DNA from: Pseudohongiella nitratireducens | GTDB lineage: Bacteria; Pseudomonadota; Gammaproteobacteria; Pseudomonadales; Pseudohongiellaceae | Direction of reading: 5' to 3' | Length of the DNA stretch: 64,000 bases | Assembly: GCF_001642735.1 (NCBI RefSeq) | Contig: NZ_LWHM01000032.1 | Location: forward strand, 62,001-126,000 | In this document: positions 34,486 to 61,100 of the stretch, piece after piece | How positions within the stretch are numbered: position 1 is the stretch's first letter | Layout of the letters: each line of letters opens with the position of its first letter | Made by a program: the position numbers and the translations under genes | The notes under the pieces: model-generated | Told to the model about the DNA's origin: nothing | What the model saw: the letters and a program-made list of their open reading frames with translations, nothing else | Database searches by the model: none

Positions 34486-34654
34486 AGGTCAGGGCATCAT
34501 ATATCCGAGGACAGACAGTAAGGCCACGCTTAGCGCATCAGGCATCGCTCGGAACAGCGGGCGGACTGTTTGAAGCCGTCAGGCTGAGTTTCCGCCCGCC
34601 GAGCGATGCCTGATGTGCTGTGGCCGTCTGCCCTCGGATATATGATGCCCTGAC
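34486..34654. repeat. Palindromic repeat, copy A
   Basis: 169-bp near-perfect inverted repeat filling the gap between the cytochrome terminator and the 3' end of rep. Arms run GGTCAGGGCATCATATATCC... to ...GATGCCCTGACC. The centre holds ACTGTTTGA (34564-34572), a 12-nt hairpin (AGCC-GTCA-GGCT) and GAGTT (34585-34589). It ends 16 bp from the rep stop. It belongs to the family described in the findings. Confidence 0.85.
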
Positions 34655-34670
34655 CGCTGCTTATCAAGAA

Positions 34671-36710
34671 TCAGGAACCCAGCAACGACCGCAAACCAGC
34701 CAGCGCCTCCTCCCCTTTCTGCTGCTTCTGTTCTGGCGTGCTGGGATTTCTTCCTTCCCACTGGAGTTGCTCGGCAGGCAGCTCATCCAGAAAACGGCTG
34801 GGTGTGGTCGGCACAATTTCGCCGTACTGCTTGCGCTTGCGCGTCAGCGTGAATATCAGCCCTTGCCTGGCGCGGGTGATACCCACGTAAGCCAGTCGAC
34901 GCTCTTCTTCAATATCGTCTGACTCAATACTGTTGCGGTGGGGCAGCAACTCTTCTTCCATGCCCATGATGAAGACCCAGGGGAACTCAAGACCTTTGGC
35001 GGCATGCAGTGTCATCAGCTGAACCTGGTCAGTGATCGCTTCCTCTTCCTGGCGTTCCAGCAAATCGCGAAGAATCAGCTTGTTGATCGCTTTCTCGATA
35101 ACGGAATCCGTATCATCTCCCGCTTCATTATCCTCTTCAGCCTGCTTGATGCCTCTGGCCAGTGACTCCAGCAGCAACTCGACATTGCCAACCGCGCGTT
35201 CGGCTGCTGCCGGTGTGGCAGCGTTTTGTTGCAGCCAGCCGTCGTAATCCATGTCATGCAGCATATTACGGATGACTTTAATGGGATCGGAACGGTGGCA
35301 GCGTTGATGGATGTCTTCCAGCCAGCGTTTGAACTGCTGCAGTTTTTCGACCTTCTTGGCGCCGAGAATTTCCTGAATGCCCATTTCATCGCAAGCGGCC
35401 ATCATGCTGATGCCTCGATCATTGGAGTAGCTGCCCAGGCCTTCCAGAATGGCAGGTCCGATTTTGCGACGCGGTGTATTGATAATGCGCAGGAAGGCAT
35501 TGTCGTCATCCGGATTCACCAGCAAACGAAGGTAGGCCATCAGATCCTTGATTTCGCTGCGGGCAAAAAAGGAGGTGCCACCGCTGATCTGGTAAGGAAT
35601 CTGGTGACTTTGTAATTTGATTTCCAGCAGGCGTGCCTGGTGATTGCCGCGATAGAGCACGGCGATATCCCCGAAATCAAGCCGCTTCTGAACACGCAGG
35701 GTGAGGATTTCGGTGGCAATGCGCTCTGCCTCGGCTTCCTGGTCAGTCAGCACTAACGCACGCATCGGCTCACCCATGCCCAGCTCACTCCACAGTGATT
35801 TTTCATACACGTGAGGGTTGTTGCCAATCAGCGTGTTAGCCGCGTTCAGGATGGTATTGCTGGAGCGGTAATTCTGCTCCAGTTTAATGAGCTTCAGCGT
35901 TGGATAATCTTCCTGCAACAACAGCATGTTTTCCGGCCGGGCACCACGCCAGGCGTAGATAGACTGGTCGTCATCACCGACCACGGTGAGACCGTTGCGG
36001 ATGCCAACCAGCAGTTTAACCAGTAAGTACTGACTGGTGTTGGTGTCCTGGTACTCATCAACCAGCATGTAATGCACGCGCCGCTGCCAGCGCTCCAGCA
36101 CATCGTTATTGGTCTGGAACAGATGCACGGGCAATAGAATCAGGTCATCAAAATCGACCGCATTAAAGGCACGTAAATGTCGTTGATAGGACGCATAAAC
36201 TCGCGCTGCAAAGATGGCATCCGGCTCAGTCGCCTGCGCCATGGCATCTTCTGGCATCAGCAGATCATTTTTCCATTCCGATATCTGCCACTGCAGCAAG
36301 CGAAGTTGGTCATCACTGACATCGGCTTCCTTGAGCATCAGGCTTTTCAGCAGGGACTGGGCATCCTGAGCATCAAAGATGGAAAAGCCGTTTTTCAGGC
36401 CGAGATGATGACGCTCGTGGCGGATGATAGTCAGCCCAAGATGGTGGAAAGTGGCAATGGTCAGCCCGCGGGTATTGCCCCCGCCATTGCTGCGCACCAG
36501 GCGCCCTACTCGCTCCCCCATTTCCTTGGCGGCTTTATTGGTAAAGGTCACGGCGACAATGCGATTGGCGGGAGTGCCACACTCATTAATCAGGTATGAG
36601 ATTTTCTGCGTGATCACACTGGTTTTGCCGCTGCCGGCACCGGCAAGCACTAGCAAGGGGCTGCTGATGTAGCGCACCGCTTCCTTTTGTCGAACGTTTA
36701 GTTTATTCAC
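34671..36710 (-). CDS. rep: ATP-dependent DNA helicase Rep
   Basis: Superfamily 1A 3'-5' helicase that helps replication past protein roadblocks. 679 aa; motif I AGAGSGKTSVI, Ia VTFTNKAAKEM, II VDEYQDTN, III GDDDQSIYAWRGA, IV EQNYRSS, V/VI LMTLHAAKGLEFPWVF and YVGITRARQGL. The length and the FHHLGLTIIRHE region fit Rep rather than UvrD. Its 3' end faces the cytochrome genes across palindromic repeat A; upstream it is divergent from a GGDEF/EAL gene. Confidence 0.95.
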   Translation of the reverse strand: MNKLNVRQKEAVRYISSPLLVLAGAGSGKTSVITQKISYLINECGTPANRIVAVTFTNKAAKEMGERVGRLVRSNGGGNTRGLTIATFHHLGLTIIRHERHHLGLKNGFSIFDAQDAQSLLKSLMLKEADVSDDQLRLLQWQISEWKNDLLMPEDAMAQATEPDAIFAARVYASYQRHLRAFNAVDFDDLILLPVHLFQTNNDVLERWQRRVHYMLVDEYQDTNTSQYLLVKLLVGIRNGLTVVGDDDQSIYAWRGARPENMLLLQEDYPTLKLIKLEQNYRSSNTILNAANTLIGNNPHVYEKSLWSELGMGEPMRALVLTDQEAEAERIATEILTLRVQKRLDFGDIAVLYRGNHQARLLEIKLQSHQIPYQISGGTSFFARSEIKDLMAYLRLLVNPDDDNAFLRIINTPRRKIGPAILEGLGSYSNDRGISMMAACDEMGIQEILGAKKVEKLQQFKRWLEDIHQRCHRSDPIKVIRNMLHDMDYDGWLQQNAATPAAAERAVGNVELLLESLARGIKQAEEDNEAGDDTDSVIEKAINKLILRDLLERQEEEAITDQVQLMTLHAAKGLEFPWVFIMGMEEELLPHRNSIESDDIEEERRLAYVGITRARQGLIFTLTRKRKQYGEIVPTTPSRFLDELPAEQLQWEGRNPSTPEQKQQKGEEALAGLRSLLGS

Positions 36711-36853
36711 AACTTTCCAGATACAATAGTGCGGGATGAATCAATCGGGGCTGGAAATCAGCATCATTATTATACATGATGCGCCCCCTGTATTTTTCAT
36801 TCTGTGAGCCAGTTCAAGTTAAATAGTCGGATCCGGTTGAAGATTACCTCTGA

Positions 36854-38668
36854 GTGGTCGATAGCAAGATACGAGGTCTCCGGCTTCAGGCCAGAGGCTG
36901 GGGGAAATTTAATGGATTCCAAGGAGGGACCCGTTCAGGGCGTGACGTGGTGCGCATACTTTTAATATCCGAACAGCCATCTGATTTTGGGCTGGTCGAT
37001 CGCAGTTTACAGGGTATCGCTGACATTCCGAGCGAGCTACTCAGCTGCCCGCCCGATCCTGCCGAACTGGCTGCTGTGGATCTGAGTCGCATCACACTGA
37101 TGATCTGGGGTCGAATCTCCGATGTACAAATAGCTGCCCAGCTGTTGGTAACCCTGAGCCAGCAGCAGCGTAAGGTGCCGTTACTGGTGCTCAGTGACAA
37201 GGCGCAACCTGAATCCGGCAACCAACAGGATTTTGGTGTTCTCCCCCGGCAATCATTAAGCGCTGCCATGTTACGTGGTGCTCTGACCCACTATGGCACG
37301 AAACGCCGTGAAGCAACGGTGACTATCAGCCAGTCAGTGGATCCCCTCACAGGTTTAAGTAATCGGCACCATACTCGCGAGCTGTTGAGTGAATGTCTGT
37401 CCAGTCATGAATCCGAAGGCACCGTTGCGTTACTGCTGATTGATGTTGATCACTTCAAGAAAGTGAATGTTTCCTATGGCCAGGGGGCTGGTGATGCCCT
37501 GATTCAGCTAATGGCTGAGCGCATCAAAGGTGCTATTTTGCCAAACCATAAACTGGCCCGTATTGGTGGCAATGAGTTTGCCGTTATTTTCCGTCGTGAT
37601 GATGGCCAGTCGGTGGCGCGTGAGGCCATGCAATGCAGTGATGAAATTATGCTCGCTATGGGGAGGCCTTTTCCATTGGCCCGTCATGCCGTTCGAATGG
37701 CTGTAAGCATGGGTCTGACTATTAAAGACCATGGTTTTGTAACGGCGGATGCCTTGTACAGCCAGGCCGACATTGCCATGCGTCGTGCCAAGCAGGATCG
37801 TGGCAATGCGCTGCAGCACTACACCAAAGACATGACGCACTCAGCTGAGAAAGAGCTGAAACTTGAAGCCGAAATTCGTCGCTCGTTGCGCAAAGAAGAA
37901 TTCGTCCTGCACTTCCAGCCTCGCATCGACATGGGCAGTGGTCGCATCGTCGGTGCAGAGGCTTTGATCCGATGGCAGCATCCAACCCAGGGGCTGCTTT
38001 CACCGGCGGCGTTTATCCGGGTGGCAGAAGACAGTGGTCTGATCGTGCCTCTGGGTTACTGGATTATCGATGCCGCCTGTCGCTACCTCACGGAGCTGAC
38101 AGCGCAAGGTTACGGAGAAGTCCAGATTGCAGTGAACGTCGCCTTTAAGCAGTTCCAGGACAAAAATTTTGTCCAGACGGTTGCCAATATCATTAAAAAA
38201 CATGGTATCCGGCCGGGCCGTCTGGAAATTGAATTAACCGAAACGACCATGATGATCGAAGGTAATTCTGTGGATCACAGCCTTCGTGAATTGAACAATC
38301 TCGGAATTGCCATTTCACTGGATGATTTCGGTACCGGGTACTCTTCCTTTGCACACATCCAGCGACTGCCCATTTCTGCACTGAAAATTGACCGTTCTTT
38401 TGTGGGTGGCGTCAATGCCAGCCATGATGACTCCACCATTGTAAAAGCGATGATCAGTCTGGCCCACAGCCTGGAAATGCAGGTGATTGCCGAAGGTGCC
38501 GAAACAGCTGATCAGGTGGAGTTCCTGCGCGAACACCAATGTGACCAGGTACAGGGTTACTTCTTCAGCCGTCCGGTCAGCTCAGATGACCTGATGGTGC
38601 TGCTGCACCGAGAGGCCACAACCGGCCTGATTGCTGCTGACAATATCGCCTCATTTTCCACTCACTGA
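36854..38668 (+). CDS. Cyclic-di-GMP protein: receiver-like, degenerate GGDEF, EAL
   Basis: 604 aa from GTG 36854; GTG 36947 (starting VRILLISEQPSDF) is a plausible shorter start. Residues about 33-135 look like a degenerate receiver domain. The GGDEF domain has DPLTGLSNRH but the active site reads RIGGNEFAV, with Asn replacing the first acidic residue, so cyclase activity may be lost. The EAL domain keeps EALIRW, the metal ligands around NVAFKQFQDKNF and ELTETTMM, DDFGTGYSS and KIDRSFV, so it probably hydrolyses c-di-GMP. It stands alone between rep and yifB. Confidence 0.88.
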   Translation: MVDSKIRGLRLQARGWGKFNGFQGGTRSGRDVVRILLISEQPSDFGLVDRSLQGIADIPSELLSCPPDPAELAAVDLSRITLMIWGRISDVQIAAQLLVTLSQQQRKVPLLVLSDKAQPESGNQQDFGVLPRQSLSAAMLRGALTHYGTKRREATVTISQSVDPLTGLSNRHHTRELLSECLSSHESEGTVALLLIDVDHFKKVNVSYGQGAGDALIQLMAERIKGAILPNHKLARIGGNEFAVIFRRDDGQSVAREAMQCSDEIMLAMGRPFPLARHAVRMAVSMGLTIKDHGFVTADALYSQADIAMRRAKQDRGNALQHYTKDMTHSAEKELKLEAEIRRSLRKEEFVLHFQPRIDMGSGRIVGAEALIRWQHPTQGLLSPAAFIRVAEDSGLIVPLGYWIIDAACRYLTELTAQGYGEVQIAVNVAFKQFQDKNFVQTVANIIKKHGIRPGRLEIELTETTMMIEGNSVDHSLRELNNLGIAISLDDFGTGYSSFAHIQRLPISALKIDRSFVGGVNASHDDSTIVKAMISLAHSLEMQVIAEGAETADQVEFLREHQCDQVQGYFFSRPVSSDDLMVLLHREATTGLIAADNIASFSTH

Positions 38669-38745
38669 TTCTCTGCCAGGCAGGCAGCCGGTTCCGGTAT
38701 CAGCTACAACAGTATCAGTAGCTATGAAAGAATCGGGAGCGCCTC

Positions 38746-40305
38746 ATGAGCAGCGCCACATCTCTGTCGTTGGTATACAGTCGTGCCAATCAGGGCGTTA
38801 ATGCGCCGCTGGTCACAGTAGAGTGTCACCTCTCTAACGGTTTGCCAGCACTGTCTTTGGTCGGCCTGCCAGAAACCGCTGTCAAAGAAAGTCGTGAGCG
38901 GGTCAGAAGTGCCATCATCAATGCTGGTTTTGCTTTTCCGGAAAGGCGCATCACGATTAATCTGGCGCCAGCGGGTATTCCTAAAAGTGGCGGTCGCTAC
39001 GATCTGGCTATTGCCCTGGGTTTGCTGGCAGCAGATGGTCAGATTGATCCCGCAGTGCTGCTGGATTACGAGATTCTGGGCGAGCTGTCATTAAGTGGTG
39101 GTATTCGATCTGTTACCGGTGTGGTGCCAGCTTTGCTGGCTGCCCGGGATCATGGGCGGCAGCTGATATTGCCGGCAGCGAACCAGGCAGAGGCACGGCT
39201 GGTTCGCGGTGCCGTCAGCTATAGTGCTGAGACCTTAGGACAGGCGCTGTCTCACTTTAAACGCACTGGCACTGGCATCTCGGCTAATACCTTTGAACGT
39301 CCCGACAAGGCTCAGCGATCACTTGCAAGTCTGACATCGGTCCGGGGTCAGGAGGCTGCAAAATGGGCATTAACTCTGGCTGCTGCAGGTGGGCACAATC
39401 TGCTTTTCTGTGGTTCGCCTGGTTCTGGAAAAACATTGCTGGCGCAATCACTGCCTGAACTGTTGCCAGATCTCAGTGAGCAGGAAACATTGTTACTAGC
39501 CTCCATTCGCTCTGTCAGTAGCAAGGTTGCACCTGATACCTTTTGGCAAAGTCCTCCTTTTCGGGCACCGCATCACAGCAGCACCGGGGTGTCACTGATC
39601 GGAGGAGGCAAACAGTTCAAACCGGGTGAGATCAGCCTGGCGCACGGTGGTGTGCTGTTTCTGGATGAGCTGCCGGAGTTTTCTCATCAGGTACTGGAGA
39701 ACCTCAGGGAGCCACTGGAGTCAGGAACGGTCAGTATCAGCCGCGCTGATTATCGCGTGCAGTTTCCGGCTGCTTTTCAGCTTGTGGCGGCCATGAATCC
39801 CTGTCCTTGCGGGTACTACAAAGACGAGAATCGAGCCTGTTGCTGCCCGCCCGATCGGGTAAGGCGCTATCAGGCCTGTGTTTCAGGTCCATTGCTGGAC
39901 AGAATTGATTTGCATGTCCGGGTCCAGCGGCCGGCCCTTGAGGCGTTGTTTCCTGGTGATAACAATACCGGTTTTACTGAGCCGGACTGGCAGCGGGTCA
40001 AACAACACGTGGCGCAGTGCCGGGCGCGGCAGATGAGCCGTAACCAATGTTTGAATGCCCGGATGTCGGTGCAGCAGGTGCATCGCTTTTGTGTGCTGAG
40101 TAAACCCCAGCAGCAGTTAATCAAGGAGATTGCCGGCAAGTGGCAGTTGACAGCGCGAGGTTGTCACCGGCTGCTGAAAATAGCCAGAACGCTGGCGGAC
40201 TGGTCAGGGATGGAAAATATCGCTGACGAGCATCTGATAGAAGCTAGCCAGTATCGTCAAAACCTGGCGGTCACTGAGGGAGTAACTGATCCTCCAGTTG
40301 TTTGA
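38746..40305 (+). CDS. yifB: YifB-family Mg-chelatase-like AAA+ ATPase (ComM-related)
   Basis: 519 aa. An N-terminal Lon-protease-like domain (GLPALSLVGLPETAVKESRERVRSAI) precedes the AAA+ module with Walker A GSPGSGKTLLAQ, Walker B HGGVLFLDELPEF and a C-terminal YifB domain containing a Cys cluster (CPCGYYKDENRACCC). The closest characterised relative is ComM, a branch-migration helicase aiding integration of transformed DNA. The 3' end overlaps the convergent ubiK by 35 bp. Confidence 0.93.
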   Translation: MSSATSLSLVYSRANQGVNAPLVTVECHLSNGLPALSLVGLPETAVKESRERVRSAIINAGFAFPERRITINLAPAGIPKSGGRYDLAIALGLLAADGQIDPAVLLDYEILGELSLSGGIRSVTGVVPALLAARDHGRQLILPAANQAEARLVRGAVSYSAETLGQALSHFKRTGTGISANTFERPDKAQRSLASLTSVRGQEAAKWALTLAAAGGHNLLFCGSPGSGKTLLAQSLPELLPDLSEQETLLLASIRSVSSKVAPDTFWQSPPFRAPHHSSTGVSLIGGGKQFKPGEISLAHGGVLFLDELPEFSHQVLENLREPLESGTVSISRADYRVQFPAAFQLVAAMNPCPCGYYKDENRACCCPPDRVRRYQACVSGPLLDRIDLHVRVQRPALEALFPGDNNTGFTEPDWQRVKQHVAQCRARQMSRNQCLNARMSVQQVHRFCVLSKPQQQLIKEIAGKWQLTARGCHRLLKIARTLADWSGMENIADEHLIEASQYRQNLAVTEGVTDPPVV

Positions 40306-40516
40306 GGACTATCTCCAGTTCTGAAATCCGCTGCTCGGCTTTTTCCAGTGCACGTTGCTGGGCATCAAATTCTTCCCTGCTGACCAAATCCATCGATTGC
40401 AGTGCGCGCTGGGCGGCCATCTTGGCCGACTGCCTGGCCTCCTCTCCCATTGCCTGGGCTCGGGGCAGTGCCTGATTTATTTGCTCGACTAAATCATCAA
40501 GAAGGGACGGTTTCAT
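40271..40516 (-). CDS. ubiK: UbiK/YqiC-type accessory factor (BMFP family)
   Basis: 81-aa all-helical protein: an N-terminal amphipathic segment (MKPSLLDDLVEQINQAL), then a long coiled coil (REEFDAQQRALEKAEQRISELEIVLKQLEDQL) typical of the membrane-fusogenic BMFP family. In E. coli the orthologue UbiK assists aerobic ubiquinone synthesis together with UbiJ. Its start faces glnK, 293 bp away; NtrC sites lie between them. Confidence 0.88.
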   Translation of the reverse strand: MKPSLLDDLVEQINQALPRAQAMGEEARQSAKMAAQRALQSMDLVSREEFDAQQRALEKAEQRISELEIVLKQLEDQLLPQ

Positions 40517-40594
40517 GCTTTGCTCTCAGAAGGCTTCAAATTAAACACAATTCTATTCTCACACAGCCCACAGGAATGATAAATACAATAACTG

Positions 40595-40643
40595 TGTTCA
40601 AAAATGGTGCGCACAGGTTTTTGCTGTGCACGCAATTGGTGCA
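40595..40643. promoter_or_regulatory. Two NtrC-type enhancer sites upstream of glnK
   Basis: 40627-40643 reads TGCACGCAATTGGTGCA, an exact fit to the NtrC consensus GCAC-N5-TGGTGC. A weaker site, TGTTCAAAAATGGTGCG, lies at 40595-40611, 32 bp upstream, about three helical turns. They are 85-120 bp ahead of the sigma-54 promoter, the usual enhancer distance. Confidence 0.85.
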
Positions 40644-40727
40644 CGTGAGCTGTCTGACAAGAATGTGCTGCCTTATTTCTGTGCGTCTATATGGTTATGT
40701 GATTGATATAAAAGAATATTAATTATC

Positions 40728-40743
40728 TGGCACGGCGCATGCA
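40728..40743 (+). promoter_or_regulatory. Sigma-54 promoter of glnK-amtB
   Basis: TGGCACGGCGCATGCA: the GG (-24) and GC (-12) doublets are spaced as RpoN requires. About 67 bp separate it from the glnK ATG. Together with the NtrC sites it indicates induction under nitrogen limitation. Confidence 0.87.
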
Positions 40744-40776
40744 TAGTAGAGAGGCAGGTGTATCTGCACTGAATAG

Positions 40777-41148
<372 letters not shown>

Positions 41149-41183
41149 CACGGTGAGACTATCCAATAGCGGAGGATATAAAG

Positions 41184-42446: not shown

Positions 42447-42554
42447 GAGCTCCGCTCCCCCTGATACTGCTGCTGCCACCCCCGGCAGCAGCAGTTGTCA
42501 AAACGATCGGTTGGCCTACTCTCCCAACTCAGCTTACCGATCGTCCCTTACAAA

Positions 42555-42578
42555 CCCCGGCTCTGCCGGGGTTTTTTT
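42555..42578 (+). terminator. Rho-independent terminator after amtB
   Basis: CCCCGGC-TCT-GCCGGGG stem followed by seven T. About 110 bp past the amtB stop. A second perfect hairpin without a T-run (GACCGCCA-TCCC-TGGCGGTC, 42581-42600) follows directly. Confidence 0.93.
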
Positions 42579-42667
42579 ATGACCGCCATCCCTGGCGGTC
42601 ACTCTTACGGGCGGTCGTTAACGCGACGTGAAAAATCGCTACCGGCTATCTTTTATGACACGGAAAA

Positions 42668-42770
42668 GGTCAGCGCATCCTGTTACGTATCTCAGCCGAC
42701 CACTGCCTGACACGCCTGACCCGTGGTCTGATTGGCTGCGATACGAAACAGGATGTGCTGATCGCTGACC
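42668..42770. repeat. Palindromic repeat, copy B
   Basis: 103-bp imperfect palindrome, arms GGTCAGCGCATCCTG... and ...CGCTGACC. The centre (GACCAC...GTGGTCTGATTGG) is the reverse complement of the CCAATCAGACCA segment found in copies C and D, so B is inserted in the opposite orientation. It lacks the GAGTT core. The rest of the 42447-42870 gap holds only the terminator hairpins. Confidence 0.75.
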
Positions 42771-42870
42771 GCTGACCGTAGATTTGATCTGCTATATAAC
42801 AGTTGTGCGTTGAAAAAAGTATAGGGTTGGCTTGCTGGCTCTTGCAAAACTGGATAACGGTGATCATTTT

Positions 42871-43116
42871 ATGAGTGACAGGCAGAAGGCTCCAGAGCCT
42901 AAACGGAATTTCGGGTACAATCTAAAAATAAACCGTGAACACCTTCAGGAAGACGGGCGAAAGTTGGCTGTTAGTGCAATGACAGCCGGTTTGGTGGGGT
43001 TGATTTTACGGAGCGATCTTTTGTATCACAGGGATGCTTTAGTGCTTTCTGTATTAAGTGTGGTAGTCTGGCTTCTGGTATATATAGAGCCTGCGGGCTT
43101 GAAGGAGGATGAATAA
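42871..43116 (+). CDS. Small two-helix membrane protein, unknown function
   Basis: 81 aa from ATG 42871 (an in-frame TTG at 42832 would add 13 residues). A polar, basic N-terminus (MSDRQKAPEPKRNFGYN) is followed by two hydrophobic segments (AVSAMTAGLVGLILRS and ALVLSVLSVVVWLLVYIEP), suggesting a hairpin in the inner membrane with both ends in the cytoplasm. Not recognised. It is followed directly by another tiny membrane protein gene, with GGAGG overlapping its end. Confidence 0.6.
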   Translation: MSDRQKAPEPKRNFGYNLKINREHLQEDGRKLAVSAMTAGLVGLILRSDLLYHRDALVLSVLSVVVWLLVYIEPAGLKEDE

Positions 43117-43248: not shown

Positions 43249-43270
43249 TAGAATAGCTCTTAGAACCCCC

Positions 43271-43294
43271 AAAAGGAGCTTCGGCTCCTTTTTT
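43271..43294 (+). terminator. Rho-independent terminator after the microprotein pair
   Basis: AAAAGGAGC-TTCG-GCTCCTTTT, a stem closed by a stable TTCG tetraloop, ending in a T-run. It is 22 bp past the stop of the 43-aa gene. Confidence 0.92.
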
Positions 43295-43319
43295 ATTGAT
43301 CTTATCGGGTGACCAAAAC

Positions 43320-43466
43320 ACAGCAGGCACGGCACAAGGGAAGGGCATCATGTTATGTGTCACAGCCAATCAGACCAGGCAGTGGTCGGATGCGATACAT
43401 AACATGATGTCCTGACCACTGACCTGTAGTCGTCGCCCCTTGACCTATGATGCCCTGACCGCACCC
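43320..43466. repeat. Palindromic repeat, copy C (3' boundary of hipBA)
   Basis: Left end GGCACAAGGGAAGGGCATC at 43330-43348, palindromic arms around CCAATCAGACCAGGCAGTGGTCGG, and a first right end at 43417. A second right-end sequence, TATGATGCCCTGACCGCAC, starts at 43446. Positions 43320-43358 are identical over 39 bp to 45316-45354 in copy D. The right end overlaps the last codons of hipB. Confidence 0.8.
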
Positions 43467-43825
43467 TGCTTTGCTTCCTTAAATCGCCGTATTTGGTAAG
43501 GTAATTCCTCCTCAGCCTGAAAATCGGAAAAAAGCAGCTTGGTTAATTCAGCATTCATGGGTAGCAAACCAAGGCGAATGCCAAAGATGCCAAATGCAGC
43601 ATTTAGCGTAGCAGATGTGGCTGGGCCCCGATCATTTTCCAGGTCAGATAATGAGCGGCGAGCGATACCGGCGATTTTGGCAAATTCACTTTGGTTCAAA
43701 CCCAGAATGCCCTTACGAAGTCGTCTCAGCAACTCCCCTTCGCTTATTCTGCCTGTTAAGGTTTGCAGCAACTGTTGCCTTAGAAAATCTTCACGTTCCG
43801 TCGCACTAAGTGCAGCCCTTTTCAT
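43445..43825 (-). CDS. hipB: HipB-like XRE antitoxin/repressor
   Basis: 126-aa helix-turn-helix protein. The HTH is LNQSEFAKIAGIARRSLSDLEN (about residues 45-66). It lies downstream of hipA and overlaps it by 4 bp (ATGA) if ATG 43825 is used; ATG 43840 would add five residues. It should bind HipA and repress the operon at the sites upstream of hipA. The last six codons (GAVRAS) and the stop lie inside the right end of palindromic repeat C, so the native C-terminus was probably replaced. Confidence 0.85.
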   Translation of the reverse strand: MKRAALSATEREDFLRQQLLQTLTGRISEGELLRRLRKGILGLNQSEFAKIAGIARRSLSDLENDRGPATSATLNAAFGIFGIRLGLLPMNAELTKLLFSDFQAEEELPYQIRRFKEAKQGAVRAS

Positions 43826-45156
43826 GTTAGCAATTGCCATCGTTTGAGTTTTTCATCCAGCCTGGAAAAGCCAAAGGTTGGCATGTTAATAATGTTTGAG
43901 CTGACGCCTCTGTTTCTTAATCTTTGCCCTAATCCTGAAAGTGCACTGGCTTGTGCTTTCAAGGTATTCAGGATCTGTGCCGGATCGGCAATATCTGACA
44001 GTTCACTGCAGATATTAATCCAGTTGAAATTTCCGCCTTCTTCAAAGGGTATGCCCCACTTGGTTGTACGTGTAATCCCCTCCGGATCGGCCTTCATTGG
44101 CGCAAAGTCATAAACTGGAGCCAGATCGATATGGTGAGGCCTTTTAAGTAAAGCACTGTTTCGTCCATGGTTGTCTGAGTTGCCAAAGGCAACATTGAGT
44201 AAGTCTCTGCGTACCCACTCCGCAACAAATGTTGAACTGTCAAATTTATGATTGCATTCGTGAAGCACTTCAACCAGTTTTCTCAGCACATCAAAGTGGT
44301 TCAGAAAACTGCCTGGCTCCTGCTCCATGACTGAATAAATGGATTCAAGTCCAAACCGCTGTTCCCGGCCGGTTTCATAGCTGACATCAAAACGAGGTAT
44401 CCACAAAGAGGGGTAGGTTGAACCTTCCAGTAGCCTGAGTTTGCTAACATCAACCGTTTCCACTCCCAGTGCGTCCAGCTCCAGGTAGTAGTGGTACTCT
44501 GCACGCAGGATATCGCAGTCAATCTCGCTACGGTTATTGCGTGGAAATTTAACCAGATAATGCTGATCCAGATTACAGGCATCATCCTGCCAGGTATCAA
44601 TCCAAACCTCGCCTTTGCTGGATCGCCTTAAAAGCAGTTTCGGGGCTTCACCGCCTGCGCCCGTTGCACCACCGCTGGCAGCTCCGATTTCTTGCGCATA
44701 TTCAAGAAAATCAGTTTGTCGTTCACAGACATCCTCGTCATTGAAGCGGTATTGACGTAATTGTGAACCAGAAACCTTTTCAGGCAGGGCCTCTTTAATG
44801 CGGAGATTGCCAATAGGCGCAATAGTGCCTTTTGATAACAACTCGCTATCTTGAGCAGGTCCGGATTGACCTGAGAGCCCCAGTAATTGCACCCAATAGC
44901 GTCGGGCTGCCCCGGAAGGAATAATATCGTTCAGAAAGGTGAACCAGGTGGGGCGTCGATAGGTTTCGGCAATGGCGACTGGCAAATTAATGCTGCAGGC
45001 AGGTGTATCTCGTCTATCAAGATATTCCAGGGTGTATTCGATTGAAGAGTAAGCCAGCTTTGACGTGCCATAACGTCCCTTCTCCGGGTCACTCAAGGTT
45101 AACTCGGCAATGTCCACCCAGCCACCGTCCAGCAAAGCCTGGATCGTGAGATTCAT
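43822..45156 (-). CDS. hipA: HipA-family serine/threonine kinase toxin
   Basis: 444-aa kinase of the HipBA toxin-antitoxin type; E. coli HipA phosphorylates glutamyl-tRNA synthetase, but targets vary between relatives. Seen here: an N-terminal subdomain with DRRDTPACSINLP, a Gly-rich loop GAASGGATGAGGEAPKLLL, KFPRNNRSEID, the catalytic segment NVAFGNSDNHGRNSALL and the metal-binding YDFAP. All kinase motifs appear intact. It precedes hipB, the reverse of the E. coli order. The operon is bracketed by palindromic repeats C and D. Confidence 0.9.
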   Translation of the reverse strand: MNLTIQALLDGGWVDIAELTLSDPEKGRYGTSKLAYSSIEYTLEYLDRRDTPACSINLPVAIAETYRRPTWFTFLNDIIPSGAARRYWVQLLGLSGQSGPAQDSELLSKGTIAPIGNLRIKEALPEKVSGSQLRQYRFNDEDVCERQTDFLEYAQEIGAASGGATGAGGEAPKLLLRRSSKGEVWIDTWQDDACNLDQHYLVKFPRNNRSEIDCDILRAEYHYYLELDALGVETVDVSKLRLLEGSTYPSLWIPRFDVSYETGREQRFGLESIYSVMEQEPGSFLNHFDVLRKLVEVLHECNHKFDSSTFVAEWVRRDLLNVAFGNSDNHGRNSALLKRPHHIDLAPVYDFAPMKADPEGITRTTKWGIPFEEGGNFNWINICSELSDIADPAQILNTLKAQASALSGLGQRLRNRGVSSNIINMPTFGFSRLDEKLKRWQLLT

Positions 45157-45321: not shown

Positions 45322-45470
45322 GGCACGGCACAAGGGAAGGGCATCATGTTATGTATCGCAGCCAATCAGACCACGCATTGCCTGGCGTTCCTGACCCGAA
45401 AACGCAGCCGAACTGTCTGAACCGTAAGGTGAGTTTTCGGCTGCGATACATAACATGATGCCCTGACCGC
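45322..45470. repeat. Palindromic repeat, copy D (5' boundary of hipBA)
   Basis: 149 bp. The arms GGGCATCATGTTATGTATCG and their complement pair perfectly over 25 bp. The interior has CCAATCAGACCACG plus a full core: ACTGTCTGA (45412-45420), hairpin ACC-GTAA-GGT, GAGTT (45431-45435). The remaining gap to 45635 shows no gene; it probably holds the promoter of the broken higB. Confidence 0.82.
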
Positions 45471-45635
45471 CCCCGGTTGGCGCTGCGATGATGAGGAAAT
45501 TGGTCTATAAACAGTGTGAGGTGAACAAAACGATATCCAGGCTTTCAACAGCGTTGGTGGGATAGTCCGAACTATTGCGCGAGAAAGCTATCGATTGTTT
45601 TTGTAGTTTGCCTTTTATACCCGAACGGATATAAT

Positions 45636-46366: not shown

Positions 46367-46369
46367 AAA

Positions 46370-51808: not shown

Positions 51809-51839
51809 GGTGGCGAACTATAGCAGCAACCCGGTTCTT

Positions 51840-54026: not shown

Positions 54027-55071
54027 TACCTCGCGACTGGCGATTAATGGTTACGGCAGAATAGGACGCTGTGTGCTGCGGGCACTGCACGAGCGTGATG
54101 ACCTGTCGTCATTGAATGTGGTCGCCATCAATGACCTGACAGATGCGCGCACGCTGGCGCACCTGACACGGTATGACAGTACGCATGGGCGATTTCCGGG
54201 CAACGTGAGTTTGCAAAGTGACAATGTGCTGCAGGTCAACGGCAGTCACGTCAAGATTTTGCAAACCCCTGGTGTGGATGATTTGCCCTGGCAGGCAATG
54301 GACATTGATCTGGTACTGGAATGCAGTGGCCAATTAAGTGACCGTGCTGCAGGTGAGCGCCACCTTTCTGCTGGCGCCAGGCGCATGCTGTTTTCGCAAC
54401 CGGCCAGTCATGATGTGGATGCCACTATTGTTTATGGTATCAACGATGGTGATTTGCAGGCATCGCACCGCATCATCTCCGCCGCCTCCTGCACCACCAA
54501 TTGTGTGGTGCCGGTGATTAAATGCCTGGATGATGCGTTTGGGCTGGAGTACGGTGTGATTACCACCATTCACTCGGCAATGAATGACCAGCCGGTGATT
54601 GATGCATATCACCATCAGGATTTGCGCAAGACACGTAGTGCCGTGCAGTCCATTATTCCAGTGGATACAGGCCTGGCCAAGGGCATTGGTCGCATATTGC
54701 CACACCTGGACGGGCGCTTTTCCGCACAGGCAATGCGTGTGCCGACAGTGAATGTGTCCGCGATTGATTTGACAGTGACGGTTCGCGAAGGCGTAACCGC
54801 TGACATCGTAAATCAGGCGATCAGAGCAGCTGCCGCGCAATCTGCGCCGGATGTGCTTGCCTGTACTGATGAGCCGCTGGCATCTTGTGACTTTAATCAT
54901 GATCCGCGGTCTGCCATTGTGGATTTAAGTCAGACGCGTGTCAGTGGCAAAAACCTTGTAAAAGTGCTGGCCTGGTTTGATAACGAATGGGCCTATGCCA
55001 ATCGAATGCTGGATGTGGCGCAATTGATTTGCCAGCTGGATTCAACAAGCGGTGCAGGAACCAAACGATAA
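54019..55071 (+). CDS. epd: Erythrose-4-phosphate dehydrogenase (GAPDH family)
   Basis: 350 aa, NAD-binding [15 protein letters not shown], catalytic Cys in [15 protein letters not shown], and the Epd-type segment [17 protein letters not shown], where true GAPDH has a different sequence. It makes 4-phosphoerythronate for pyridoxal phosphate synthesis, though GAPDH activity cannot be excluded. The order tkt-epd-pgk-fba is widespread in gammaproteobacteria. Overlap with tkt suggests coupling. Confidence 0.92.
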
Positions 55072-55165
55072 ATTTTGTTAGGCAGATAAGACGTTTTAGG
55101 CCGCCAAGAAGTTTAGAGAGACCCCGTCGCATAGGGATACATGGCAAAGGAGAGTAGGACTGGCT

Positions 55166-56347
55166 ATGACTAGCTCAAAGACAATCAAACGAATGCAGGA
55201 ACTGAACCTTGAGGGTAAGCGGGTTTTGATTCGCGAAGACCTGAATGTGCCAGTAAAAGACGGCAAGGTTGGTAATGACACACGGATTGTCGCCGCATTG
55301 CCAACGATCAAGCAGGCAATGGAGGCCGGTGCCCGCGTGATTGTGATGTCTCACCTGGGACGGCCAGAAGAGGGCAAGGCAATTGCGGAACAGCCAGAAT
55401 CATCCTTGCAGCCAGTCGCTGCCCACCTGCAGTCCCTGCTCGGTAGCCCGGTCAGACTGGTGGCTGATTATATCGGTAACCCTGACTCAGCCACGCCAGC
55501 AGATGGTGAGGTGGTTCTGCTCGAAAACGTAAGGGTTAACGTTGGCGAGAAAAAAGATGATGAAACACTGGCAAAACAGTATGCCGCGCTTTGTGATGTG
55601 TTTGTCATGGATGCGTTTGGTACAGCTCACCGTGCCCAGGCCAGCACGCATGGTGTGGCTAAATTTGCCGGCCAGGCGTGTGCCGGTCCGTTGTTGTCAG
55701 CAGAACTGGATGCGCTGGACAAAGCATTGCAGGCACCCGAGCGTCCCATGCTGGCAATAGTGGGTGGCGCCAAGGTGTCCAGCAAGCTGGAAGTGCTGGA
55801 AAGTCTGGCTGAGAAAACAGATCAGTTGATCGTGGGTGGCGGCATTGCCAATACCTTCCTGCTGGCAGCCGGTTATTCTGTTGGTAACTCCCTGGTAGAA
55901 AAAGACCTGGTACCTACGGCTAAAGCGCTGATGGAGAAGACCAGCATTCCCCTGCCAGTAGATGTCATTGTTGCCAAAGAATTTTCGGCAGATGCTGAGG
56001 CCACGGTTAAGAATGTGGCAGACATCGCTGATGATGACATGATCCTGGATATTGGTCCGGCAACTGCCGCCCGATTGTCAGAAATCATTGCTGGCATGAA
56101 AACCATTATCTGGAATGGTCCGGTTGGGGTGTTTGAATTTGATGCTTTTGCAACGGGTACTGAGGCCATTGCGCGGGCAATCGCTGAGAACGACGGTTTC
56201 TCTATTGCCGGTGGTGGCGAAACCATCCAGGCAATCGATAAGTTTGGCATTACCGATAAAGTTTCTTATATCTCGACAGGCGGCGGTGCATTTTTGGAGT
56301 TTGTGCAAGGCGAGACATTGCCAGCCGTTGCAATTTTGGAACAGTAA
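55166..56347 (+). CDS. pgk: Phosphoglycerate kinase
   Basis: Glycolytic kinase, 393 aa. Signatures: [82 protein letters not shown] and [18 protein letters not shown] lies before the start. It follows epd by 94 bp and precedes fba by 25 bp. Confidence 0.98.
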
Positions 56348-56372
56348 TTAACGAAAACAAAGAGGATTAGTT

Positions 56373-57416
56373 ATGGCACTGATGAGCATGCGACAGCTGC
56401 TGGATCACGCTGCGGAAAATGGATACGGAGTTCCGGCGTTTAACGTCAACAACCTGGAACAGGTTCGCGCGATCATGGAAGCGGCCAATGAAGTGAATAG
56501 TCCTGTGATTCTTCAGGCGTCTGCTGGCGCCAGAAAATACGCCGGGTCTAATTTTTTGCGTCATTTGATTCTGGCGGCTATCGAAGAGTTCCCTCATATT
56601 CCTATCGTGATGCACCAGGATCACGGTGTCACGCCTGCGGTTTGTCAGCGTTCGATTCAACTGGGTTTCTCCTCCGTGATGATGGATGGTTCACTGGGTC
56701 CAGATGGTAAAACACCGACAGACTACGAATACAATGTCGATGTAACGCGCACCGTTGTGCAGATGGCGCACGCCTGCGGTGTATCAGTGGAAGGTGAAAT
56801 CGGTTGCCTGGGGTCACTGGAAACCGGTATGGCCGGAGAAGAAGATGGCATCGGCGCAGAAGGTAAACTGAGCCATGACCAGATGCTGACTTCTCCGGAA
56901 GAAGCCGAATCTTTTGTTAATGATACCGGTGTTGATGCCCTGGCTATCGCTGTCGGTACCAGCCACGGCGCTTACAAGTTTACACGTCCACCAACCGGTG
57001 ACATCCTGGCTGTCAGCCGTATCAAGGAAATTCACAAGCGTATTCCTAACACTCACCTGGTTATGCACGGCTCCTCTTCTGTGCCGCAGGAGTGGCTGGC
57101 AATCATCAACGAGTTTGGTGGTGAAATCCCTGAAACGTATGGCGTACCTGTCGAAGAAATTCAGGAAGGTATCAAGCATGGCGTTCGCAAGGTCAACATT
57201 GATACGGATCTGCGTCTGGCGTCTACTGGTGCGGTGCGCAAATTCCTGGCGGAGAACAAATCAGAGTTTGATCCGCGTAAATTCCTGATACCAACCACGC
57301 AAGCGATGAAGGGCATTGTTAAAGATCGTCTGGAAGCGTTTGGTACGGCGGGTCAGGCGAGCAAGCTGGGCAAGATCTACAGCCTGGAGGAAATGGCTGA
57401 GAAGTACGGGCTGTAA
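56373..57416 (+). CDS. fba: Class II fructose-bisphosphate aldolase
   Basis: Zinc-dependent aldolase, 347 aa, closer to the Calvin-cycle/Pseudomonas type than to E. coli FbaA. Seen: [19 protein letters not shown] (zinc ligands), [53 protein letters not shown] and [11 protein letters not shown]. It ends the tkt-epd-pgk-fba group; immediately downstream begins a repeat-rich segment. Confidence 0.97.
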
Positions 57417-57455
57417 CGCTTGGGCTTAGTTTAAGAAACACTTCGTAGTGAGTGC

Positions 57456-57627
57456 GGTCATGCTGTTGCATTCGCCCGGCTGCGCGGTCACTTCCCTCCT
57501 CCCTGACCCGGACGCTGCGGAACTCGTTTGCGTGGCAAACTCAGACAGTCCTCGCGTTTGATCCGGGCCAGTGAGGAGGGAAATACGTGACCTGATTGCT
57601 TCGCCGGGTGAATGCAACAGCATGACC
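57456..57627. repeat. Palindromic repeat, copy F
   Basis: 172-bp palindrome whose outer arms (GGTCATGCTGTTGCATTCGC...) pair fully with the end (...GCAACAGCATGACC). The core is on the minus strand: AACTC 57521-57525, hairpin GTTTG-CGTGG-CAAAC, TCAGACAGT 57541-57549. The inner half is almost identical to copy H, while the outer arms differ and remain self-complementary. Segment 57628-57807 holds degenerate pieces of the same family (TCAGATAGT 57671-57679, TCATACAGT 57785-57793) and no credible gene. Confidence 0.85.
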
Positions 57628-57807
57628 TTGGTGCCACTTGTGGGCGGGGTTGCGGAGCTTGCTCACAAACTCAGATAGTTCCACGCGCTTTTTCCGGTCA
57701 GCCCCTGGCGGAGAAAGCGTGCTCTGATGGCTCGGATCCCTAAGCCAATCGCCTTTCTTTTTTTCACCGCTTCTCGGCACTAGCTCATACAGTCCTCGGT
57801 TTGGTTC

Positions 57808-57979
57808 GGTCGTTTCATTGCCTCCACCCGGCTGCGCGGTCACTTCCCTCATGCCCTGCCCGGACGCTGCGGAACTCGTTTGCGTGGCAAACTCAGACAG
57901 TCCTCGCGTTTGATCCGGGCCAGTGAGGAGGGAAATACGTGACCTGATTGCTTCGCCGGGTGGAGGCAATGAAACGACC
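57808..57979. repeat. Palindromic repeat, copy H
   Basis: 172 bp, arms GGTCGTTTCATTGCCTCCAC... pairing with ...GAGGCAATGAAACGACC. Core on the minus strand: AACTC 57873-57877, hairpin 57878-57892, TCAGACAGT 57893-57901. It ends 97 bp before the higBA operator. The stretch to 58075 shows no gene. Confidence 0.85.
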
Positions 57980-58075
57980 TTGGTGCCGGGCTGGGGGTTG
58001 TGCGCTATAAATGGATAGGCGTTTAATTCTTGTTGTGTTTCACGGGAGTGAGTGGGGAATGTGTGGTTTGTGGAA

Positions 58076-58094
58076 TGTATCGTATAGCGATACA
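58076..58094. promoter_or_regulatory. Operator of the higBA module
   Basis: Palindrome TGTATCG-TATAG-CGATACA ending 8 bp before the toxin start. The position over the start region is typical for autorepression by HigA. Inferred from symmetry and location. Confidence 0.7.
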
Positions 58095-58102
58095 ATTATG
58101 TA

Positions 58103-58381
58103 TTGATCATTAGTTTCCGGCATAAAGGGCTTGAGGCTTTTTATCGAACGGGGACTACGCGCGGGATTCAGGCGGCTCATGCTAAAAAGCTTCGGCGTAT
58201 TCTGGGTTTGCTGGATGTGGCTACAGGCCATGTGGATCTAGATCTTCCCGCGTTCAGGCTACATCCGTTAAAAGGAGATTTGGCAGGATATTGGTCGATT
58301 CATGTTAATGGGAATTGGCGGGTAATGTTTCGTTTTAAGGGACAGGATGTCGAGCTTGTTAATTATCTTGATTATCACTAA
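58103..58381 (+). CDS. higB: HigB/RelE-type mRNA interferase toxin
   Basis: 92-aa RelE-superfamily toxin of the HigB (GraT-like) group, starting at TTG 58103 to give the family N-terminus MIISFRHKGLEAFY. Conserved: FRLHPLKGDLAGYWSIHVNGNWRVMFRF and the terminal DYH. The catalytic-type residues are present, so it looks functional, unlike the broken toxin at 45636. The antitoxin starts 12 bp downstream. Weak start codon and an operator overlapping the start fit tight control. Confidence 0.93.
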   Translation: MIISFRHKGLEAFYRTGTTRGIQAAHAKKLRRILGLLDVATGHVDLDLPAFRLHPLKGDLAGYWSIHVNGNWRVMFRFKGQDVELVNYLDYH

Positions 58382-58393
58382 GCAGGGTTAACT

Positions 58394-58678
58394 ATGATGA
58401 AGAATCCTCCGCACCCGGGTGAGTTGATCAGAGAAGATGTGATTGAAGAGTTGGGTCTGTCTGTGACAGAGGCTGCAGAGAGTCTGAGAATGTCGCGGGT
58501 TGCGTTATCGCGTGTGCTGAATTGTCGTGCAGCGATTAGTTCTGATCTTGCATTAAGGCTTGAGCTGGCGGGCGTTGGCTCGGCGAGTGCCTGGTTGGCT
58601 ATGCAGGTTAATTACGATTTAGCTCAAGCCAGATTGCTTCCGCAGCCATCTGTTCGGGCTTTGCGGTCAGCTTCTTAA
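58394..58678 (+). CDS. higA: HigA-family antitoxin
   Basis: 94 aa with the HigA signature NPPHPGELIREDVIEELGLSVTEAAESL and HTH MSRVALSRVLNCRAAIS. Two adjacent ATGs (58394, 58397) are possible. It neutralises HigB and should bind the palindrome at 58076. The C-terminus ends close to the next repeat array, which begins within 35 bp. Confidence 0.93.
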   Translation: MMKNPPHPGELIREDVIEELGLSVTEAAESLRMSRVALSRVLNCRAAISSDLALRLELAGVGSASAWLAMQVNYDLAQARLLPQPSVRALRSAS

Positions 58679-58708
58679 TTCAAGCTAAGGCAGTCCTCGG
58701 TTTGGTTC
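58679..58708. repeat. Partial repeat unit before the tandem array
   Basis: AAGCTAAGGCAGTCCTCGG at 58682-58700 matches the tail of the array units (AAGCTCAAACAGTCCTCGG), so a truncated unit abuts the higA stop. Confidence 0.6.
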
Positions 58709-59126
58709 GGTCGTTTCATTGCATCCACCCGGCTACGCGGTCACTCCCCTCATGCCCTGCCCGGACGCTGCGGAACTCACTTGCACCGCTTCGCGGCACA
58801 AGCTCAAACAGTCCTCGGTTTGGGGCGGTCAGATCGTTGCATTCAACCCGCTACGCGGTCACTCCCCTCATGCCCTGCCCGGACGCTGCGGAACTCACTT
58901 GCACCGCTTCGCGGCACAAGCTCATACAGTCCTCGGTTTGGTTCGGTCGTTTCATTGCACCCACCCGGCTACGCGGCCACTTCCCTGTCACCTGCTCCGG
59001 ACGCTGCGGAACTCACTTGCACCGCTTTGCGGTACAAGCTCAAACAGTCCTCGCGTTTGATCCGGAACAGGTAACAGGGAAAGGCGTGGCCTGATTGCTT
59101 CGCCGGGTGGGTGCAATGAAACGACC
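58709..59126. repeat. Tandem array of palindromic-repeat units (118-bp period)
   Basis: Units start at 58709, 58827 and 58945. The first two are 118-bp half elements (left arm plus core); the third is a full 182-bp palindrome closing with ...GCAATGAAACGACC. Each carries the core on the minus strand: AACTC at 58774, 58892 and 59010; TCAWACAGT at 58804, 58922 and 59040. Inner hairpins are CTTG-CACCGCTTCGCGGCA-CAAG-like. Apparent reading frames across this array repeat with it and are not genes. Confidence 0.85.
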
Positions 59127-59235
59127 TTGGTGCCGGGTTTAAGGTGTGTGGCTTTATTTTCTGGACTATGTGGGTTTGTAGTTTTTTCAGAGTTTCAGGG
59201 CGGTTTAATGGAATGGCAAAGGATTGTGGCACCAA

Positions 59236-59417
59236 GGCCGTCGTACTTATATCGTCGCTCATTCCAATAGGGCCGCGCTTTTTTCTTCTCTGGATGTTCG
59301 ATAAAGTGCGAGCACTGTCCGAATCCCGAGCGGCTTTGCCGCGAGGATGAGTTGCGCAGCACCGAACATCCAGAGAAGAAGGTGGCTGGAATGAGCGACG
59401 ATATAAGTACGGCGGCC
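59236..59417. repeat. Palindromic repeat with ACTGTCCGA core
   Basis: 182-bp inverted repeat between the array and the serine hydrolase 3' end; arms GGCCGTCGTACTTATATCGT... and ...ACGATATAAGTACGGCGGCC. Core on the plus strand: ACTGTCCGA 59314-59322, hairpin ATCC-...-GGAT with GCGGC-TTT-GCCGC inside, GAGTT 59349-59353. Nothing else is seen in 59127-59451. Confidence 0.83.
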
Positions 59418-59451
59418 GTTGCTAAGTAAATGGGTGAATTGCTGCAAAAGA

Positions 59452-60699
59452 TCAGTCCAGGAGCGCCTCATAAACCCGATTCTTGAAATCCTCCCGAAAC
59501 CCATTCCCGCCCGAAGGTGAAACCTGAGCCATGATCACAGTTACCATATTGTTGACCGGATCAATCCAGAAACGCGTGCCAGCCGAACCGTCCCACCAGA
59601 CTTCGCCCTGGCTCACGGTGTGATCGTAGTTCTCTGGATGAAGTGCGTATGCGAATCCGCCCAGCGTCCAGCCCGATGCCGCCATGTAGCCGCCTCGGCC
59701 AATGGGTAACAGTTCGTCGGCTATGCTGTTCTCCATCATGAGTTCAACCGTTTCCGGCTTGAGTATGCGAGTGCCGTCGATCTCGCCACCGTTGAGGAAG
59801 AGCTGGGAGAAGCGTGCGAAATCAAGCGTAGTTGATAACAGCCCGACGCCACCTTCTACTAAAGGAACCTGTTCAGTAAATGGGATGTCTTCCATCTGAT
59901 GAACCTGCAAGGTGCCATTGGCATCTGGACGGTAGACGGTTGCCAGGCGGTCAATGCGTGACGGATCTGCCCAGAACACCGTGTCGGTCATGCCCAGTGG
60001 TCCGAATACCCGTTCTTCAAGAAACTGGTCGTAAGGCTGGTCTGACCAGATTTCAACTAACCGTCCCAGAATGGTGGCGGAAATACCATAGCGGAAGCGC
60101 GTACCGGGATCATCGAAAAGCGGAACGCGAGCAGCATTATCTGTCATCTGTGCCAGCGTGATAGATCGCAGGCGAACCTGTTCCTGTACATAAATATCTG
60201 AACTGCGACTACCTAACCCAGACGTATGGCGCATCAGATCGGCAACAGTGATGTCACCTTGTCGGGGGCGGGTTTCATCCATGTTGGGTGAAGCAGCGTC
60301 TTGAAAGACCTGCTGGTCTGCAAACTGTGGGAGATACTGGCTGATCGGGTCGTCCAGTTGGAACCTGCCTTCCTCCCAGAGGATCATGGCAGCCAGACTG
60401 CTGACCGGACGCGTCATGGAGTAAATACGAAATAGCGCATCTTCCGGCATCGGCGTATCTGAGGCGATATCCTGCTGCCCCAGTGCTTCCCGATAAACCA
60501 GCTTGCCATCTTTCAAAACAGCCGCCACAACACCGGCAATATGCTTCTGCTCAATATGCGCCTGAAGACTTTCAGTAGCGCGCTCAAGACCGGCGGAAGA
60601 AACCCCGACACTCTCAGGCGAAACAGCCTCAAAAGACTGTGAAACAGCAGCATGGGACAACAGACCGAACGCGAACAAACCAAAAGCCAGCTTCTTCAT
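59452..60699 (-). CDS. Beta-lactamase-family serine hydrolase with altered SxxK motif
   Basis: 415 aa, signal peptide LFAFGLLSHAAVS|QS. Fold and motifs follow the class C beta-lactamase/EstB esterase family: LVYREALGQQDI, RIYSMTRPVSSLAAMIL, DLMRHTSGLG, FRYGISATILGRLVE, and WDGSAGTRFWIDP near the C-terminus. The catalytic SxxK is SMTR here (codon CGT), so the general-base lysine is replaced by arginine. Activity may be reduced or changed. Likely periplasmic; substrate unknown. It stands between two palindromic repeats, with serA beyond. Confidence 0.85.
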   Translation of the reverse strand: MKKLAFGLFAFGLLSHAAVSQSFEAVSPESVGVSSAGLERATESLQAHIEQKHIAGVVAAVLKDGKLVYREALGQQDIASDTPMPEDALFRIYSMTRPVSSLAAMILWEEGRFQLDDPISQYLPQFADQQVFQDAASPNMDETRPRQGDITVADLMRHTSGLGSRSSDIYVQEQVRLRSITLAQMTDNAARVPLFDDPGTRFRYGISATILGRLVEIWSDQPYDQFLEERVFGPLGMTDTVFWADPSRIDRLATVYRPDANGTLQVHQMEDIPFTEQVPLVEGGVGLLSTTLDFARFSQLFLNGGEIDGTRILKPETVELMMENSIADELLPIGRGGYMAASGWTLGGFAYALHPENYDHTVSQGEVWWDGSAGTRFWIDPVNNMVTVIMAQVSPSGGNGFREDFKNRVYEALLD

Positions 60700-60805
60700 A
60701 CACCATCACCTGAAACGTTATACGTTGTTATTACCCCTCAATATATCCCACCTGCGACACCACGAAAAGAACAGAACGGCACCACAGCCAAAATCATGCT
60801 ACTAA

Positions 60806-60986
60806 GGGCGTTGTATGACCTCCTCAGGGTAAACCAGTAAAGCCACGTGTTCATCCGCACAGCATGTTCGGAAATGAGCGAGCACTGTCCGAATCCCGAG
60901 CGGCAAAGCCGCGAGGTTGAGTTGCGCAGCGCCGAACATGCTGTGCGGATGGTGGCGGTTTACCCTGAGGAGGTCATACAGCGCCC
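60806..60986. repeat. Palindromic repeat with ACTGTCCGA core, second copy
   Basis: 181-bp inverted repeat with arms GGGCGTTGTATGACCTCCTC... and ...GAGGAGGTCATACAGCGCCC. Core: ACTGTCCGA 60884-60892, hairpin with GCGGC-AAA-GCCGC, GAGTT 60919-60923. The core is nearly the same as in the 59236 element but the arms are unrelated in sequence. Confidence 0.83.
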
Positions 60987-61100
60987 GTGCAATCGAGGGT
61001 GAGTTGCGCAGCACCGAACACCTTCAGTGAAAGGTGGCCGGGCTGTCTGGATTGATGGTGTGACGCCCGTGCAACTCGAGGTTGAGTTGCGCAGCGCCGC
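60987..61100. repeat. Degenerate repeat pieces next to serA
   Basis: Two partial copies containing GAGTTGCGCAGC at 61001-61012 and 61084-61095, each preceded by CGCCCGTGCAA. The second reaches almost to the serA stop at 61101. Nothing else is seen. Confidence 0.65.

Follow-up and report, generated by a model that had tools for sequence, protein, structure and literature searches.

attC sites keep their structure while their sequence varies, and their strand is marked by extrahelical bases. Among palindromic repeats, PMC3733652 describes REPs as abundant, located after genes and arranged in facing pairs, and CGTC-tagged palindromic repeats and Rickettsia palindromic elements as lacking a dedicated transposase. 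The OTH-22-1 attC-like motif is presented in PMC8632094 as a structured single-stranded element of several phyla with RYYYAAC at its 5' end. In this study we analysed a palindromic repeat of Pseudohongiella nitratireducens (GCF_001642735.1, hereafter the host), built around the core ACTGTYYGA - small hairpin - GAGTT, in a window of 64,000 nt; the window is the whole stretch of DNA studied, and a window coordinate is the coordinate on contig NZ_LWHM01000032.1 minus 62000. Like REPs, BIMEs and REPINs, the element is palindromic, multi-copy, intergenic, mostly placed after genes and often found in inverted pairs. It shares palindromy without a known dedicated transposase with the CGTC-tagged and Rickettsia repeats, and a structured, single-stranded form in several phyla with OTH-22-1, as far as these two sources describe them. 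Like attC sites, it keeps its structure while the sequence varies and has one strand marked by extrahelical bases. We consider, with a probability of about 0.6, that it represents a superfamily of palindromic repeats that is new, mobile and non-autonomous and is read as a folded single strand, either RNA or single-stranded DNA.

Folding of the full copies gave a repeat of approx. 170–200 nt that forms one long hairpin of near-fixed layout. From the outside inwards the commonest layout has four helices, of 30 bp (the outer helix), 6 bp (GACCAC/GTGGTC), 20 bp and 9 bp. Bulges of 5 nt (AGTAA or ATCAG), 4 nt and 5 nt (AAAAA) separate them in this order, the core follows the 9-bp helix, and the bulges are confined to the 5' strand of the hairpin. 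The hairpin turned out to be much longer than the outer helix and inner hairpin of the original prediction, and the ordered one-sided bulges had to be added. The window copies have inverted-repeat arms of 25–31 nt, spaced 75–122 nt apart. A complete unit comprises a 5' leader of roughly 30–45 nt, often with ...GGCACAAGG, and one such hairpin. Sub-types A and B account for most host copies and type C for the cluster at 57–61 kb, most type C copies having a longer small hairpin. Several full hairpins have one or more 3' halves in tandem behind them that lack a 5' half (loci L003, L013 and L032-L034, and the cores 58774 and 58892 in the window); behind A and B copies these halves often alternate in type, as judged by eye. 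A usual kink-turn has a 3-nt bulge followed by tandem G-A pairs. In the element GA stands opposite GA in 35/35 aligned host copies, these letters being part of the search pattern, and the preceding loop is GUYY or UGUYY, 4–5 nt and hence longer than usual, so that the kink-turn of the original prediction stays a suggestion. By eye, copies of the Gallionella group (L136, L141, L145, L148, L162, L167, L205, L281, L282) share a long conserved 3' extension that ends with a terminator-like stem, which makes the unit larger there.

Covariation was measured in an alignment, A1, of 35 host copies. Out of 46 distinct core hits, these were chosen for folding with an energy below -95 kcal/mol. Because this selection favours pairing and the rows are related copies, the shuffle figures for A1 are not probabilities. 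Double changes were detected in 58 of 67 base pairs, and 95.9% of the cells were paired as compared to 71.1% in shuffles. The covariation score of 0.678 was reached in none of 500 shuffles (0.200 +/- 0.008) and was at most 0.136 when the partner was slid by 1–3 columns. The earlier claim that the unpaired parts stay fixed while the helices covary was thereby confirmed. In 112 public loci, represented by one core each and analysed for arms and energy, the arms were more complementary than 99% of shuffles in 63 loci (cross-locus arm pairings 0.4%), and at least 20 pairs spanned the core in 103, a span counted without a shuffle control.

The mismatches in the helices distinguish the two strands. 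In A1, G-U plus U-G pairs occurred 70 times versus 17 for A-C plus C-A. Model-fitted matches from relatives gave 83 G-U versus 6 A-C in 38 rows, in an alignment that leans to the model and in which one row is the opposite strand of another. A model-free arm-to-arm alignment of host, genus and a few family or order loci gave 85 versus 16, G-U exceeding A-C in 43 of 55 strong-arm elements, with the reverse in 5 and a tie in 7. This excess identifies the strand reading ACTGTYYGA as the folding one, and at least in this genus it is the strand under selection. The suggested selection on a folded strand is thus supported, with the addition that one particular strand is concerned, at least in this genus.

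A model search of the genome and its relatives, proposed together with the original prediction, found 45 full-length copies in the host, scored in bits, plus fragments and opposite-strand echoes. Elements were found in 15/15 genomes of the genus, and genus, family and order together had matches in 21/56 genomes and 5/29 genera. Written as GAGGACTGTYYGA...GAGTTCCGC, the core was present in at least 120 stretches of public genomes from many bacterial groups, where a simple arithmetic estimate gives approx. 4 by chance. Titles among the matches listed name Proteobacteria, Nitrospira, Lachnospiraceae, Coriobacteriia, Bacteroidales, Patescibacteria, Myxococcota, Omnitrophota, Chloroflexi and Spirochaetes; many of these matches are metagenome bins, and single taxon assignments may be wrong. 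An even sample of the class Gammaproteobacteria had the core in 7/274 genomes, and the reversed core pattern, used as control, in none of these and in none of 15 chosen carriers, which hold 1–99 copies per genome. A 40-nt core query, weak given the variable loop, had no match in plasmids and phages; the core was present on two viral contigs. No description of the element was found among the listed titles and abstract openings of literature on the motif letters, palindromic repeats and structured RNAs (including PMC3733652, PMC12306157 and PMC8632094).

Absence at the same site in congeners and near-identical copies at unrelated places point to mobility. The type A element at 34478..34665 (+), recognised by its inverted repeats and scoring 195.1 bits, has a cytochrome-c gene on one side and a UvrD/Rep helicase gene on the other according to Pfam matches. 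These neighbours are kept in 14 congeners, and the model search of the 14 loci detected no element; their gaps hold different sequence, 72–992 bp long, which includes other inserts in some loci and is partly N in G006. One copy on contig 14 and one on contig 23 have 174 nt of hairpin and about 30 nt of leader in common, the leader being split by 34 nt in one of them. Three copies on contigs 27, 1 and 25 agree in leader, hairpin and following 3' half and differ in their surroundings.

Neighbouring copies face each other with their 5' ends in 7 of 8 host full-length pairs less than 500 bp apart, the exception being 57446/57798, and in 20 of 23 adjacent pairs at public loci. A fixed two-ended transposon was rejected as explanation for the pairs because the spacing of the model matches ranges from 24 to 229 bp among the 15 pairs listed. 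Five facing pairs in public loci are 0.9–1.3 kb apart with open reading frames (ORFs) between them; of six such ORFs four had no Pfam match, one encodes an 8xMP membrane protein and one a formiminotransferase-cyclodeaminase. Among 35 host copies, duplicates of a key having been dropped, a terminator-like stem with a T-run occurred only upstream in 16, only downstream in 3 and on neither side in 16 (p 0.004). A separate terminator scan of 33 host copies gave 12 sense and 12 antisense upstream versus 1 and 3 downstream. Terminators with longer loops escape the scan, an example being the stem at 34407-34446, directly 3' of which the 34478-34665 element lies. Host copies thus tend to lie downstream of an intrinsic terminator, and part of the facing pairs in the host could arise where a single terminator is flanked by copies on both sides.

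At public loci, where gene-context counts rest on an ORF rule and the genes are not curated, 43 of 113 gaps were convergent as compared to 160 of 711 adjacent ORF pairs, and in tandem gene contexts the copies ran against the genes 37 times and with them 20 times. In a check for replication-strand bias the sense strand was slightly C-rich (52/131 positive, p 0.02), a figure confounded with gene direction.

The genes around the copies are ordinary. Of 245 ORFs within 500 bp of a core, 141 were scanned for Pfam families, namely the 140 closest ones not exceeding 450 aa and one more; the 104 left out were longer than 450 aa (51) or farther off (53). Among the 25 commonest families per scan, none occurred in more than 3/92 or more than 2/49 ORFs, and the families listed were ordinary enzymes and regulators. 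RAYT was rejected as a required partner: PF01797 was found in 27/43 carriers and was missing in 16/43, including G081 (100% complete) and Dechloromonas hankyongensis (G335). The host has one RAYT-like (PF01797) gene, L046:892-1929 (-), with a C-terminal DnaA-like domain and QYH in place of the usual HUH; in the 3.3-kb locus around it the model search found no element. Reverse transcriptase (PF00078) was likewise rejected as mobiliser, as it is absent from the host (100% complete) and present in 17/43 carriers. Integron integrase over the cut-off was found in 15/43 carriers versus 103/274 class genomes, which is no excess, and not in the host genome; within the class sample 5/7 carriers and 98/267 other genomes had it, too few to tell. 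We also observed two host matches below the cut-off to the N-terminal part of integron integrase (G000:C23:206201-206452 and C30:6552-6749), a full integron integrase in genome G009 and a broken one in G014.

Several explanations other than a mobile repeat were weighed. The element could be a functional non-coding RNA or 3'-end RNA element that is kept for the host, for example for RNA protection, processing or protein binding, and has spread as a by-product. The excess of G-U over A-C suits an RNA, as do the paired arms of the elements after the fba gene in five genus members and, by eye, the Gallionella-group 3' extension with its terminator-like stem. However, the neighbouring genes differ, the copy number ranges from 1 to 99 with a patchy distribution (7/274), and in tandem gene contexts the copies run more often against gene direction than with it; we hold this explanation to be rather unlikely. 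Template switching within the palindrome, which would copy one arm onto the other so that covariation would not be a sign of a working fold, appears less probable still. In its favour, double Watson-Crick changes (316) already match single ones (303) at 10–20% divergence in 51 non-independent comparisons, and it would suit the strand asymmetry being weak (35 vs 25) outside the genus. Arm copying is strand-symmetric, however, and would not give the 85 versus 16 of the model-free alignment; it would also erase the one-sided bulges, yet these persist, and at the lowest divergence single changes outnumber double ones (12 vs 3, only 3 comparisons).

A site of the attC kind for single-strand recombination, with paired sites enclosing cargo and a tyrosine recombinase of the integron or another type acting on them, would follow the same logic of variable helices, fixed extrahelical bases and one strand, and the five facing pairs that enclose ORFs could be read in this way. 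The R-box pair RYYYAAC / GTTRRRY was, however, found in 0/35 elements (shuffles 0.06), which also sets them apart from OTH-22-1 with its 5' RYYYAAC. Moreover, the elements are longer than attC, have no integrase link in host or carriers, and are arranged facing instead of in the same direction, which makes such a site very improbable. We give the least credit to a giant REP/BIME variant moved by a RAYT (Y1 HUH) transposase, although the element resembles REPs, as outlined in PMC3733652, in its abundance, its facing pairs and its position behind genes, and although the host has its one RAYT-like gene. The REP hairpin is 20–40 bp, whereas the element has approx. 170–200 nt with ordered one-sided bulges; it lacks a foot tag (GTRG-like, i.e. 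GTAG/GTRG, in 4/35 and CGTC in 0/35), some carriers are without RAYT (16/43), and no element accompanies the host RAYT gene. The inverted pairs typical of REPs and BIMEs are the feature that the element does have. As far as their description in that source goes, CGTC-tagged repeats and Rickettsia palindromic elements also differ, as the element has no CGTC, is far longer and has arms unrelated between loci. Rfam 15 gave 0 matches at gathering score in the window; when 3.7 kb of the window and 9 loci were scanned by E value, every match fell far short of the gathering score. REP/RAYT, attC/integron, reverse-transcriptase elements and Rfam families do not fit, each failing in at least one tested defining feature. 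The original prediction, which had not recognised a REP, an attC site or a named RNA, held when tags, R boxes, RAYT and integrase presence and Rfam were tested.

In the mobile-repeat reading, the working form would be the folded single strand reading ACTGTYYGA. A protein or a mobilising machinery may read the fixed core together with the one-sided bulges as its marks, the arms would need only to pair and be free in sequence, and a dedicated or host enzyme would mobilise the folded strand in trans. Several observations weigh against this reading. No partner gene was found, RAYT, reverse transcriptase and integron integrase each occurring in only part of the 43 carriers. The strand asymmetry is weak in other taxa (35 vs 25 in 16 public elements, 5 vs 2 in five more), and the minimum free energy z of the public loci has a median of -3.3, with 59/112 below -3 and 53/112 not reaching -3. 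A target duplication is not readable, as the congener flanks are too diverged. Congeners show no clear terminator polarity (sense upstream 2 vs downstream 1 of 30), nor do loci across phyla (sense 8 vs 7, antisense 6 vs 13 of 125). Finally, the gap downstream of fba holds elements in five genus members including the host, which selfish insertion would not need.

More tentatively, and with the odds somewhat against it, the element may stand for an unrecognised class of mobile elements in about a dozen phyla, by the titles among the matches listed, whose identity lies in a three-dimensional single-strand fold, made up of the fixed core and of bulges at set helical distances, with nearly all paired sequence free, and which is moved by an undescribed enzyme. 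The element is abundant in its carriers and crosses phyla, and it is easily missed because arms of different lineages have no sequence in common. Should it be mobile, this would point to an unknown enzyme that reads folded strands, and should it be a host RNA, to a class of RNA not known so far. Either reading can be tested directly through the core and the spacing of the bulges.

All nine cores of the original prediction were present in the window, eight as exact pattern hits and 58892, a TATGA variant, by eye. The layout assigned to all nine was complete in six full-length copies, whereas 45412 belongs to a damaged copy and 58774 and 58892 are 3' halves only. Of the nine, the five from 57521 to 59010 have to be read on the minus strand. 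The damaged copy at 45325..45511 (+; 39.3 bits) keeps the 5' arms, the core and the outer 3' arm; by eye, its 3' inner arm was lost between two GGCTGC repeats. A full-length type C element at 57446..57636 (-; 148.1 bits) lies directly 3' of the fba gene. A second one at 57798..57988 (-; 140.5 bits) folds with only partial pairing, its inner 3' arm belonging to another sub-type. The cores of the two tandem 3' halves are at 58770..58816 (-; core hit and sequence) and approximately 58888..58934 (-; by eye), both, by eye, without a 5' arm of their own. Full-length elements at 58935..59135 (-; 155.7 bits) and 59227..59427 (+; 138.1 bits) face each other with their 5' ends, and the 31-nt arms of the latter are 97% complementary. 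A further full-length element, with inverted repeats, is at 60797..60996 (+; 124.9 bits), followed by more 3'-half fragments up to about 61100 (by eye). Two remnants have no core: 42658..42772 (-; 58.7 bits, 41.3 bits on +), in which the outer arms are still paired and the inner helix and core are deleted, and 43329..43427 (+; 64.1 bits), which has the leader GGCACAAGG and outer arms.

Between these remnants and the damaged copy a HipA-like kinase gene was located at 43822-45156 (-). Inside the repeat cluster a HigBA-like toxin-antitoxin pair was found at 58100-58677 (+), the first gene being named by eye and the second having an HTH_3 match with an E value of 0.0003, below the curated score. 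By eye, the cytochrome-helicase gap of several congeners (L228, L230, L231, L232, L238, L239) contains another palindromic repeat family, GGGGACGGAGG ... CCTCCGTCCCC, and toxin-antitoxin-like gene pairs, so that this gap looks like an insertion hot spot. In two of the five genus members with copies in the fba gap (L097 and L100), one outer arm and the gap seem inverted relative to each other (by eye). An 81-bp stretch near elements was 96% identical between an Arenicellales bin (L132 566-646) and two congeners (L084 2148-2228, L101 2307-2387), perhaps another shared repeat.

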